From IMG/VR virus record IMGVR_UViG_3300031757_000001, positions 1 to 56,178 of that record: a stretch of DNA of 56,178 bases. The stretch is one strand, 5' to 3'. The notes below the pieces were generated by a model. The model saw nothing but the letters and a program-made list of their open reading frames with translations, had not been told where the DNA came from and did no database searches. Position numbers and translations under genes: made by a program. The DNA is from a virus. Shown piece by piece: positions 6,829-28,761 of this stretch. Numbering within the stretch: the stretch's first letter is position 1; every line of letters begins with the position of its first letter.

Positions 6829-6898
6829 GTTATTGATAGTCAGGCACTTGCGTGCGCGGGGGCCGCGTGGCTAAACCCTTGTCGCCCAACGCTTTACA
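6824..6898. repeat. 75-bp double-palindrome boundary element, copy 4
   Basis: Palindromes start at 6824 and 6870 (46-bp pitch), with core GCGCGGGGGCCGCG. The first arm overlaps the end of the gene at 6670-6828. It is followed by the promoter of the RNA cluster. Confidence 0.72.
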
Positions 6899-6925
6899 AC
6901 TATCTTTAGTTTCATGAAAAAAAGC

Positions 6926-6955
6926 TTGACTTTGGGGTCGATTCTGTCATACTAT
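6926..6955 (+). promoter_or_regulatory. Early promoter (CTGTCA subclass) of the RNA cluster
   Basis: TTGACT, 18 bp ending in CTGTCA, TACTAT. The predicted start is near 6962. There is no ATG at the start point; the transcript leads into the tRNA-like gene at 6991. Confidence 0.8.
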
Positions 6956-6990
6956 AGGTATAGTTCTTTTGATAGTTTAAGTATTTTTGT

Positions 6991-7115
6991 GGGGTTGTAG
7001 CTCAGTTGGTTAGAGCCTTGTCCTCCTTCATCGTGAAATTCTAGATAAATTAGCGAACGGCTTAATTATCCGTGGAGCAAACAAGAGGTCGGTGGTTCGA
7101 ATCCACCCAACCCCT
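6991..7115 (+). tRNA. tRNA-like gene with about 52-nt insertion in the anticodon loop
   Basis: A canonical tRNA frame is visible: acceptor stem GGGGTTG/CAACCCC, T8-A9, D stem GCTC/GAGC with AGTTGGTTA loop, anticodon stem CTTGT/ACAAG, variable region AGGTC, T stem GGTGG/CCACC with TTCGAAT loop. Between the anticodon stem strands are 59 nt instead of 7, including an internal CTCC/GGAG pairing and an ACGG...CCGT hairpin. It may be an intron, a tRNA decoy, or a tRNA-like RNA. The anticodon cannot be assigned because the splice junctions, if any, are unknown. The nucleotide between D and anticodon stems seems to be missing. No CCA is encoded. Confidence 0.65.
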
Positions 7116-7116
7116 G

Positions 7117-7191
7117 CTCTTTCTGTAGATGCGAAAGCATTGAACAACGAGGCGTCAGCACACGCCTACAACCTTCGGGAGAGAGAAAGAG
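7117..7191 (+). ncRNA. Multi-arm structured RNA 1 (cloverleaf-like)
   Basis: Seventy-five nucleotides directly after the tRNA-like gene are closed by a perfect 8-bp stem CTCTTTCT/AGAAAGAG. Inside are an ATGC-GAAA-GCAT hairpin with a GNRA-type loop, a GGCGT/ACGCC hairpin with a 6-nt loop, and a small CC-TTC-GG arm. The shape recalls a tRNA without canonical T-loop or CCA. No known RNA family is recognised. Confidence 0.5.
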
Positions 7192-7201
7192 GTTCACAAT
7201 T

Positions 7202-7297
7202 TTGAGAGTCCAGTACGAAGCCTAGTAGGACAGGAGAATGTGTCACATCGTCAGTAAGATGGCGTAGGATTTATTGCGGTGGCTACGCAACTCTCAA
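7202..7297 (+). ncRNA. Multi-arm structured RNA 2
   Basis: Ninety-six nucleotides are closed by a perfect 8-bp stem TTGAGAGT/ACTCTCAA. Internal candidates are CCT-AGT-AGG, CATC/GATG with an 8-nt loop, and GCGTA/TACGC (7262-7266 with 7284-7288). It probably comes from the same transcript as the tRNA-like RNA. No known family is recognised; no ORF of note lies across it. Confidence 0.45.
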
Positions 7298-7323
7298 TTC
7301 ACTTTATATTTCAAAGAAAAAGC

Positions 7324-7352
7324 TTGACAACTGCCCCATAATTTCATAGAAT
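7324..7352 (+). promoter_or_regulatory. Sigma70-like promoter
   Basis: TTGACA, 17 bp, TAGAAT. It leaves a leader of about 20 nt with AAAAAAAGGAAAA before the ATG at 7380. Confidence 0.75.
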
Positions 7353-8340: not shown

Positions 8341-8531
8341 TTGATACGGAACATCATTACCTTGTCATGCAAATACGAGATTTGCTAGAGAAGAAGCTAG
8401 ACCTTACAGTCCGAAATCATGGACTTTGGAGAATTCAAGCCTTAATCCATGACGAACTAGAGGAGAGAGACCTGTTAGAGTCGAGTGGAGAGGTGAAGCT
8501 CCCCGACATGGGTGATCACGCAAATCCCTGA
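8337..8531 (+). CDS. Hypothetical protein (64 aa)
   Basis: A small acidic helical protein coupled to the gene before it by an ATGA overlap. No family recognised. Its last codons and TGA stop lie inside the first palindrome of repeat element 5. Confidence 0.6.
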   Translation: MIDTEHHYLVMQIRDLLEKKLDLTVRNHGLWRIQALIHDELEERDLLESSGEVKLPDMGDHANP

Positions 8532-8593
8532 TAGCCAGGCACTTACGTGCGCGGGGGGCGCGAGCCCAACTCGTTGATAGCCAACGCCTTGGG
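8519..8593. repeat. 75-bp double-palindrome boundary element, copy 5
   Basis: Palindromes start at 8519 and 8565 (46-bp pitch), with core TGCGCGGGGGGCGCG. The first palindrome contains the end of the gene at 8337-8531. The -35 at 8608 follows 14 bp later. Confidence 0.7.
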
Positions 8594-13813: not shown

Positions 13814-13888
13814 CGTAAGGTGCTGACTGTCAAGCACTTCTGTGCGCGGGGGCCGCCCTCGTAAGGCGTTGCCTATTAAGGCTTTACG
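13814..13888. repeat. 75-bp double-palindrome boundary element, copy 10
   Basis: Palindromes start at 13814 and 13860, with core GCGCGGGGGCCGCCC. The terminal TTACG arm supplies the TAA stop of the - strand gene at 13884-14033. Confidence 0.78.
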
Positions 13889-16389: not shown

Positions 16390-16464
16390 CGCAAGCTGTT
16401 GATACACAGGGGCTTGCGAGAGCGGGGGCCGCCCTCGTAAGGCGTTGCCTATTAAGGGCTTACC
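16390..16464. repeat. 75-bp double-palindrome boundary element, copy 13
   Basis: Palindromes start at 16390 (CGCAAG...CTTGCG, a compensated arm change) and 16436 (CGTAAG...CTTACC), with core AGCGGGGGCCGCC. It supplies the TAA stop of the gene at 16460. Confidence 0.8.
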
Positions 16465-26889: not shown

Positions 26890-28761
26890 ATGACTTGGGA
26901 ACAAGGCAATCAACCATCATTCAAAAAAGATAGAGACATAAACCAACAAATCCTCAATCTTGAGGGTAATTTAGAGGAGGAAGATGCAAAATACTATCTT
27001 TATAAGTTTTTAAAAGAGAATACTACATTTGGCACTCAATTATTAACTGGGGTTGAATTATTTCCTTTTCAACATTTAGCCATCAAGGCTATGTTTGAAA
27101 CAGATTACTTCTTAGGAGTATGGGGAAGAGGAATGAGTAAATCTTTCACTACTGGCTTGTTTGCCCTAATGGATGCTATATATAATCAGGGAGTCGAGAT
27201 AGGGATTTTATCTAAATCTTTTAGGCAGGCAAAAATGATTTTTAGAAAAATGGAAGACATTGCCTCTAAACCTGATGCTAGATACCTCAATCAATGCATT
27301 ACAAAAATTACCAAAAGTAATGATGAGTGGTTGATGCAAATCGGAAGTAGCAATATTCGGGCCTTGCCATTGGGGGACGGAAGCAAGCTGAGAGGATTCA
27401 GATTTCACAGGATCATCATCGACGAATTTCTCTTGATGCCAGAAAGAATCTATAACGAGGTTATAGTCCCGTTTCTCTCTGTGGTGGAGAATCCGCAACA
27501 AAGGCAAAAAATATTTGACCTAGAAAACAGGCTAATTGAGCAGGGAAAAATGAGGGAGGCGGATAGATATATCTGGCCGAATAATAAGTTAATAATGCTA
27601 AGTTCTGCCTCGTACAAGTTCGAGTATCTCTATAAGCTATACGAAACGTTTGAAAACCTAATACTAGATGAAAGAGTTGGGCGCAGTGCTTTCGACGCGA
27701 AGAGGGCGATTATGCATTTTAGTTACGACCAGGCTCCAGAGAAGCTATATGACCAGAACCTAGTGGCCCAGGCCAAGCAGACCATGAGTCATAGTCAGTT
27801 CGCTAGAGAGTTCGAGAGTGTATTTACGGACGACAGTAGCGGTTATTTTAAGACATCAAAAATGGCGCAGTGTACAGTTCCAGATGGAGAGGCCCCTTCC
27901 GTTGAGCTTGCAGGGGAGAAGGGCGCAAAATATATTCTTTCCTTTGATCCAAGTTGGTCAGAAAGCGAAGGGAGCGACGACTTCGCAATGTTGGTGTTAA
28001 AATTAAATGAAGAGACTGGCAAGCACATTCTCGTGCATAGCTACGCAATGGCGGGGACGAGACTAAAGGATCACATAAATTATTTTCATTATTTAATTTC
28101 ATATTTCAATATAGTAATGATCGTTGGAGATTATAATGGTGGAGTTCAGTTTATTAACGCCGTAAACGAAAGTAAGATATTCAAGGATAAGAAAATAAAA
28201 ATTAAATTGCTTGATCAGTCTTTTGACAAGGCCGAGGACTATAAGAAGGACTTAACTCGAGCAAAAAGAGTTTATGACCCAGGGGATTATAGTTATTGTA
28301 TTTTAAGGAAACCTACGTCCGACTGGATAAGGAAGGCGAATGAGCTACTGCAGTCCAGCATTGACCACAAGAGGATATGGTTTGCCTCCAGGGCCGTGGA
28401 CGATTGCTATTTAGATCAAAAATCAAAAAAAATACCAATTAAGAAATTAAAATTCATTGGGGGACTGGAGCAGGAAGAGCATAATTCTGGGGCAAAGATG
28501 ATCGATCTTGTGGAGCATTTGTCGGATAACATAAACTCCACCAAGGGGCAGTGTGCGTTAATTCAGGTATATACGTCTCCGCAGGGCCACCAAACGTTTG
28601 ATCTTCCTCCAGAACTGAGGAGATCAAGTGGGCCGAATAAGGCGAGGAAGGATAGTTATTCTGCACTAGTTTTGGGCAATTGGGGCCGCAAGATATATGG
28701 GGATATGATTTCTGTAGAAAGCGAAAGGCAGAGTTCCTTCACTCCAATGTTCATAAGATAA
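26890..28761 (+). CDS. Terminase large subunit
   Basis: The packaging motor ATPase/nuclease of 623 residues. The N-terminal ATPase has a Walker A variant VWGRGMSKS (about 77-85), followed by the Walker B RIIIDE (174-179) and a coupling motif LSSAS (about 238-242). The C-terminal RNase H-like nuclease begins ILSFDPSW (Asp353), with Asp414 in IVGDYNGG as the second acidic residue. Length is slightly above typical. It is unusually placed between sugar-modification genes, with the small terminase not identified nearby. Confidence 0.9.
   Translation: MTWEQGNQPSFKKDRDINQQILNLEGNLEEEDAKYYLYKFLKENTTFGTQLLTGVELFPFQHLAIKAMFETDYFLGVWGRGMSKSFTTGLFALMDAIYNQGVEIGILSKSFRQAKMIFRKMEDIASKPDARYLNQCITKITKSNDEWLMQIGSSNIRALPLGDGSKLRGFRFHRIIIDEFLLMPERIYNEVIVPFLSVVENPQQRQKIFDLENRLIEQGKMREADRYIWPNNKLIMLSSASYKFEYLYKLYETFENLILDERVGRSAFDAKRAIMHFSYDQAPEKLYDQNLVAQAKQTMSHSQFAREFESVFTDDSSGYFKTSKMAQCTVPDGEAPSVELAGEKGAKYILSFDPSWSESEGSDDFAMLVLKLNEETGKHILVHSYAMAGTRLKDHINYFHYLISYFNIVMIVGDYNGGVQFINAVNESKIFKDKKIKIKLLDQSFDKAEDYKKDLTRAKRVYDPGDYSYCILRKPTSDWIRKANELLQSSIDHKRIWFASRAVDDCYLDQKSKKIPIKKLKFIGGLEQEEHNSGAKMIDLVEHLSDNINSTKGQCALIQVYTSPQGHQTFDLPPELRRSSGPNKARKDSYSALVLGNWGRKIYGDMISVESERQSSFTPMFIR

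Follow-up and report, generated by a model that had tools for sequence, protein, structure and literature searches.

A tRNA-shaped phage RNA with a structured domain in place of the anticodon loop and its linkage to a second RNA

Genes for tRNAs in phages are usually read as helpers of translation. A tRNA fold can also act as a processing signal, for which mascRNA-type RNAs set the precedent, and it can form one module of a larger noncoding RNA, as in tmRNA (RF00023), where another domain replaces the anticodon arm, or in the bacterial Y RNA YrlA (RF02553), which has a Ro-binding stem, not an acceptor stem, at its end. Among larger structured RNAs, GOLLD, ROOL and OLE form homo-oligomers through kissing loops, in which the palindromes change in concert (PMC12286853).

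The window analysed here, the whole stretch of 56,178 nucleotides, is a virus record that contains a gene for the large subunit of terminase (26890-28758) and is therefore assigned to a tailed phage. It includes a tRNA-like RNA, RNA1, directly followed by a second RNA, RNA2, and both recur in a family in which many phages appear to keep the tRNA shape without codon reading.

Cloverleaf of RNA1 and its surroundings

RNA1 is a match to RF00005 (49.6 bits, gathering threshold 29, E of 1.1e-7 over the window), the sole Rfam match in the whole 56-kb window. The preliminary description of this DNA had recognised canonical acceptor, D and T arms and an anticodon stem enclosing 59 nt, and this arrangement is confirmed together with its coordinates (Table 1). 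Both inner pairings that had been named, CTCC/GGAG and ACGG/CCGT, exist as well; the list was incomplete, since a further one, TCGT/GCGA, had been overlooked. Of the features of a decoding tRNA, the three arms (acceptor, D and T) and the covariation of the stems are present; a 7-nt loop with an anticodon and U33 is absent, the 59-nt loop starting with CC. As its anticodon loop is replaced by a domain of two hairpins, RNA1 cannot decode as it stands. Position 26 is missing from RNA1 in the Rfam alignment, ARAGORN calls no tRNA at RNA1, and the fold of RNA1 alone is modestly better than that of shuffled sequences (z-score -2.06).

Table 1. Features of the RNA1–RNA2 locus in the window
Feature	Position	Strand	Details
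Sigma-70-type promoter-like site of the ncRNA operon	6926-6955	+	TTGACT...; 9/12 consensus
Leader motif	6961-6974	+	TAGTTCTTTTGATA (GTTCTTTAAAATTTA / GTTCTTTAACATTT in relatives)
RNA1, tRNA-like RNA with expanded anticodon loop	6991-7115	+	RF00005, covariation
RNA1 acceptor stem	6991-6997/7108-7114	+	U8 at 6998
RNA1 D arm	7000-7016	+	GCTC AGTTGGTTA GAGC
RNA1 anticodon stem	7017-7021/7081-7085	+	CTTGT/ACAAG; CTCGC/GCGAG in L037
RNA1 enclosed anticodon loop, structured domain	7022-7080	+	59 nt instead of the usual 7; neither introns nor ribozymes of Rfam match
CTCC pairing with GGAG	7023-7026/7074-7077	+	invariant in the window, L121, L323, L037
Hairpin A	7031-7056	+	TCGT 7031-7034/GCGA 7053-7056 (CCAC/GTGG in L037), loop motif ATNCTAGNTAA; alignment of relatives, RNAalifold
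Self-complementary hexamer in hairpin A loop	7040-7045	+	TCTAGA; candidate kissing-loop dimer contact
Hairpin B	7057-7073	+	ACGG 7057-7060/CCGT 7070-7073; loop with UAAUUA (UGAUCA in many relatives)
RNA1 variable loop	7086-7090	+	
RNA1 T arm	7091-7107	+	GGTGG TTCGAAT CCACC, loop TTCGAAT; Rfam alignment, covariation
RNA1 discriminator	7115	+	U; CCA not encoded
Linker between RNA1 acceptor and RNA2	7115-7116	+	N73-G; two bases
RNA2	7117-7191	+	P1 7117-7124/7184-7191, GUA, P2, GAACAACGA, P3 GGCGU/ACGCC, UACAA, P4, GAGA
RNA3, third probable structured RNA	7199-7300	+	outer stem TTGAGAG/CTCTCAA; recurs in relatives

The relative in L037 aligns with RNA1 over its full length with 72% identity. For 21 close relatives of the window type, RNAalifold, with no structure supplied, returns the cloverleaf together with the two insert hairpins, and 25 of the 29 pairs change on both sides. 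Paired cells amount to 94.2% (69.6% in shuffled and at most 47.8% in slid alignments) and the covariation score is 0.729, compared with 0.259 after shuffling. In the anticodon-stem helix all six aligned pairs change on both sides, and the helix of hairpin B is 95% paired, with such changes in four of five pairs. On CTCC/GGAG covariation is silent, for or against, because this pairing is unchanged in the window and in the three relatives listed for it. All four tRNA stems covary in the relatives; a lack of such covariation had been named in the preliminary description as what would speak against the tRNA fold. A covariance model built from the 21 rows (the E-values of our homemade models are rough) finds a single full copy per record, at 80–118 bits, in eight related records, gives ordinary tRNAs no more than 50 bits, and recovers the held-out members in L332 and L151 with 77.8, 72.6 and 58.1 bits. 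Judged from these alignments, the fold of RNA1 is under selection.

The best-conserved stretch of the insert is AT-N-CTAG-N-TAA in the loop of hairpin A. The hexamer of this loop is self-complementary in all 21 relatives, as TCTAGA (the window), ACTAGT, CCTAGG or ACATGT, and more distant members have GCTAGC, GATATC, GTTAAC, TGTACA and CTGCAG. Palindromic hexamers are present in the inserts of 32 of 34 sequence clusters, not fully independent of each other and with L134, L291 and L301 left out, compared with 21.6 ± 2.7 in dinucleotide shuffles, none of 200 of which reached as high. In the minimum-energy fold, the palindrome lies inside a hairpin loop in only 11 of the 34 clusters (3.1 expected). 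Because the hexamer stays self-complementary while it changes, a kissing-loop dimer is suggested; symmetric kissing loops were argued for OLE and GOLLD from switching palindromes in the same way (PMC12286853). On this pattern, there seems to be about an even chance that the loops of hairpin A join two copies of the RNA as a kissing-loop homodimer; alternatively, a tetraloop could form inside a single molecule, closed by the outer pair of the hexamer.

That RNA1 may have a promoter of its own, as had been proposed, is suggested by the promoter-like site upstream. Four promoter-like sites occur in 620 bp, with 1.0 expected by chance, and a similar TTGAC...CTGTCATAAT, recognised by eye, precedes RNA1 in several relatives. 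The leader motif presumably resembles the boxA of rRNA operons. Downstream, RNA3, presumably on the same transcript, is conserved in L029:4100-4197, L042:297-408, L161:13796-13893 and L027, and the region 7116-7310 alone has a fold z-score of only -1.02. A fourth conserved noncoding element, ending with GAGTTTTCCGTC...CTCATT(T/C)G...GGATACCA, is found in the operon of relatives (L025, L027, L033, L038, L272, L277) and is missing from the locus in the window. In L025:7037-7165 and L038:7082-7205, the same locus is occupied by a tRNA-like RNA that lacks RNA2, has a long acceptor and seems to form a pseudoknot, the pairing of which changes from CTGCAA/TTGCAG to CTGCGA/TCGCAG. GC-rich intergenic repeats lie between phage genes of the window at 6856-6900, 8529-8590, 13816-13856 and 16393-16432.

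RNA2 and the tandem family

RNA2 has no match in Rfam 15, and no description of it was found in the open-licence literature. The first MAFFT alignments of all RNA2 sequences (A1, A3) misaligned P1 because P4 varies, and a subset, A4, was used instead. RNA2 is 95.3% paired, with a strong covariation of 0.588 versus 0.146, the conserved P3 core in A4 being imposed by the search pattern.

The sequence that follows the acceptor stem is N73-G-C-U, with G74 in 52 and C75 in all of the 60 curated members, and C75 is the first base of P1 of RNA2 in the window and in most members. The N73-G-C junction followed by RNA2 is found in the window at 6991-7191. P1 starts exactly at +2 in 33 of 65 members; starts at +4 belong mostly to one group, the stem of which has a CTC/GAG base at +2 if a bulge is allowed. 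The tRNA-like RNA of L019, found solely by its long distance between the D and T arms, carries a type II RNA2 directly behind it, which provides an independent check, and type II RNA2 also follows tRNA-like RNAs in the isolate phages Psa21 and D6, the tRNA-like RNA of D6 being annotated by its depositors as tRNA-OTHER. In L113, the anticodon arm itself contains RNA2. Given the fixed junction, together with L019, Psa21 and D6, and L113, RNA1 and RNA2 are linked far beyond chance. They are nevertheless separable, since tRNA-like RNAs without RNA2 and RNA2 alone both exist. L113 has two tRNA-like RNAs with RNA2 in the anticodon arm, the second with P3 GGCGC/GCGCC, a compensatory change, and a GOLLD RNA (250 bits, L113:3961-4386, minus strand) lies near both.

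Relatives of the neighbouring protein have, in the same place, tRNA-like RNAs with different middles, mostly followed by RNA2. Scans for RNA2 (GAACAACGAGGCGT...CGCCTACAA) returned 81 viral stretches and 19 in bacterial or archaeal genome bins; these scans require the exact core, so that variation outside it is under-sampled. With a parser for acceptor, D and T arms, 66 tRNA-like RNAs were found directly upstream when 88 distinct copies of RNA2, among them those of type II, were examined. The other 22 copies comprise 13 in genomes, eight viral ones, and L338, in which a tRNA-like RNA missed by the parser is seen by eye; in L337, an ordinary tRNA lies upstream. Members of the family occur in viral contigs, bacterial bins and isolate phages, and no earlier description of the tandem was found in the open-licence literature. 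Two other RNAs met there, the E. coli sRNA Pas (a preprint) and a tmRNA described in phages, are different from this family.

The anticodon stem encloses 37–145 nt in 57 of the 60 curated members, from which L134, L291 and L301 were left out, since their anticodon stems, like that of L179, were weakly or wrongly parsed. A few members (L112, L349, L387) have a closed, extended anticodon stem instead of a big loop, and the type II partners in L349 and L385, which keep a loop of 7–9 nt, might still decode. U8 is present in 56 and the GG of the D loop in 58 of the 60, and the T loop reads TTCRANN in nearly all. In 18 of 60, the loop has T as its second base, and the pattern of U33 and anticodon is not conserved. 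Pair 3:70 of the acceptor is CG in 30, GC in 25 and G:U in one, and these members share no conserved set of synthetase identity elements in the acceptor or at N73. Inserts without RNA2 were found in the tRNA-like RNAs of L003, L013, L014 and L021. Several pairs from the scan for D-to-T distance were ordinary tandem tRNAs and were dropped, and matches of a broad scan for the CTAG motif were mostly due to chance. BLAST of the locus against isolate phages gave only fragments of tRNA arms.

RNA2 without a tRNA-like RNA is found in bacterial genomes, mostly of Patescibacteria, and several of these copies are followed by a hairpin resembling an intrinsic terminator (lone loci are L326, L327, L328, L331, L333-L336, L339, L340, L343 and L344). 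Its pattern has three matches, all in previously known carriers, among 286 sampled genomes of one Patescibacteria phylum, which makes it a rare rather than a core RNA there. In the type II forms of isolate phages, model R2 of RNA2 reaches no further than the shared core, and BLAST of plasmids with RNA2 gave matches only at the level of chance. CUS-3 has an RNA2 core, AAAACGAGGCGTCG..ACGCCTA, between Q and S (L351:1201-1223); 1112 of 5426 E. coli genomes contain a close match to this region, which is unannotated among the matches listed. The core is also found in L391 (Jgk1) and L392 (Acinetobacter NL).

Other tRNA-related RNAs were met as well. Genes of ~63–75 nt resemble tmRNA with the ends of the tRNA-like domain joined without a messenger domain (L023:8634-8706 and the same in L044, L151:5423-5486, L411, L405; minus strand in L023 and L151), and those of L023, L044 and L151 score 56–59 bits over the full RF00023 model. 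In other large phages (L373, G326:C1:189705-189828; L374; L375), tRNA genes have inserts elsewhere, for example one that separates the D stem from an intact anticodon arm of Asp type. A tRNA-Gln-like gene with a normal-looking start of the anticodon loop and ~50 extra nucleotides is present in L005:14507 and L020:3288, and these two are better candidates for a small intron than RNA1 of the window.

Reading of the composite RNA and rival explanations

RNA1 folds into a covarying cloverleaf, belongs to a family and is linked to RNA2 at a fixed junction, and we hold its structure and family with high confidence. It is probably a non-decoding, tRNA-mimicking phage RNA that serves as the 5' domain in a bipartite noncoding RNA. 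The earlier label of a tRNA-derived regulatory RNA fits as far as a non-decoding tRNA-like RNA is meant, though a regulatory role would be a further assumption. Since the conserved part is the tRNA elbow (U8, the GG of the D loop, the T loop), likely partners are factors that read the body of a tRNA.

The preliminary description had also proposed a new small intron, and a self-splicing or protein-spliced intron in the anticodon loop, the removal of which would restore a decoding tRNA, agrees with the position of the insert, which is where tRNA introns lie. Removing 52 nt would give CCUCC|AA, a Gly-like UCC with A37, A38 and U73; the loop of L092 begins with CUUCUAA and is more intron-like, and the Gln-like loops of L005 and L020 carry an insert. 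The spliced reading, however, has C and not U at position 33, the starts and ends of the loops are unconserved, as seen at the second base, and homologues, whose loops vary in both sequence and length, share no splice sites. Closed, extended arms with nothing to splice retain their RNA2 partner (L112, L387), no Rfam intron is among the matches up to an E of 5 at 6900-7330, and an insert-free version of the same gene was not found. With unrelated loops of widely varying length, closed stems and no U33 pattern, a new small intron is unsupported, and we consider it very unlikely; for a group I intron, the insert is indeed too small, as had been remarked. Decay of a phage tRNA gene that had received an insertion by chance would account for the missing position 26 and for the silence of ARAGORN, but the compensatory changes in the 21 relatives exclude it for practical purposes, and the single intact copy in each related record, the conserved motif of the insert and the linkage to RNA2 also stand against such decay.

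Two further explanations take the tRNA shape itself as the function. RNA1 could be a decoy for tRNA-targeting defence or for tRNA-binding host proteins, to which it would offer acceptor, elbow and T arm with no cleavable anticodon. The elbow and acceptor are preserved while the anticodon is removed, the acceptors are diverse with no fixed identity for an aminoacyl-tRNA synthetase, and the RNA is borne by many unrelated phages, all of which a decoy would explain; it leaves unexplained RNA2, the fixed spacing and the conserved insert loops, no linked defence or counter-defence gene was identified, and we regard it as rather unlikely. A decoy for anticodon nucleases, the form originally suggested, is unlikely because RNA1 has no anticodon, the loop itself being missing. 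Alternatively, the tRNA fold may be a processing signal only, with cuts by RNase P and RNase Z releasing RNA2 as the real product. In favour of this, the spacing between the acceptor stem and the start of RNA2 is fixed, RNA2 is better conserved than RNA1, and lone copies with a terminator-like hairpin are found in Patescibacteria, although the conserved, covarying hairpins and loop motif of the insert and the position of RNA2 within the anticodon arm of L113 do not follow from it; it appears to us unlikely.

If RNA1 is a non-decoding part of a composite, the RNA1–RNA2 pair would be transcribed from its own promoter as a stable noncoding RNA, the tRNA-shaped part of which would be recognised by host factors that handle tRNA (RNase P, RNase Z, the CCA enzyme or another binder of elbow or acceptor), and RNA1 would be processed. 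The self-complementary insert loops may join two copies by a kissing interaction, as the palindromic loop suggests. The composite RNA might then act as a scaffold or occupy a tRNA-binding host factor during infection; we put forward this function only tentatively. In a broader view, which we find plausible though slightly short of probable, RNA1–RNA2 would be an undescribed, phage-wide composite of a tRNA-shaped module, a dimerising domain in place of the codon-reading loop, and a second RNA, working as an RNA-only or RNA–protein machine during infection of many unrelated bacteria. If confirmed, some phage tRNA calls that are "undetermined" or missed would represent a separate class of RNA with its own function. 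Since Psa21 and D6 are cultured phages, the family is directly testable.

Comparison with known systems

Group I introns in the anticodon loops of bacterial tRNAs occupy the same position as the insert of RNA1, which is far too small for their core, has no Rfam match and lacks conserved splice sites; neither a known intron core nor a restored loop with conserved exon ends (C33) is recognised. GOLLD, ROOL and OLE are likewise structured RNAs, and GOLLD and ROOL are found in phages near tRNA islands, but they are much larger and unrelated to RNA1 in sequence and fold. No match to the GOLLD (RF02032) or ROOL model is present in the window, and GOLLD adjoins one family member, in L113, by happenstance. 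YrlA is, like RNA1, a noncoding RNA with a tRNA-like module, and some loci of the family have sub-threshold matches to it; in the window there is no match to RF02553, and a Ro motif is not recognised in RNA1. With tmRNA, RNA1 shares a tRNA-like acceptor and T arm within a larger noncoding RNA, whereas its D arm is complete, its extra domain is small, no frame for a tag peptide is recognised, and the window has no RF00023 match. Closest is the ordinary phage tRNA (RF00005), which has the same cloverleaf, U8, GG in the D loop, TTCRANN in the T loop, and acceptor and T stems; RNA1 differs from it in having no 7-nt loop, U33, anticodon or encoded CCA, and carries instead the 59-nt domain and, behind it, RNA2.
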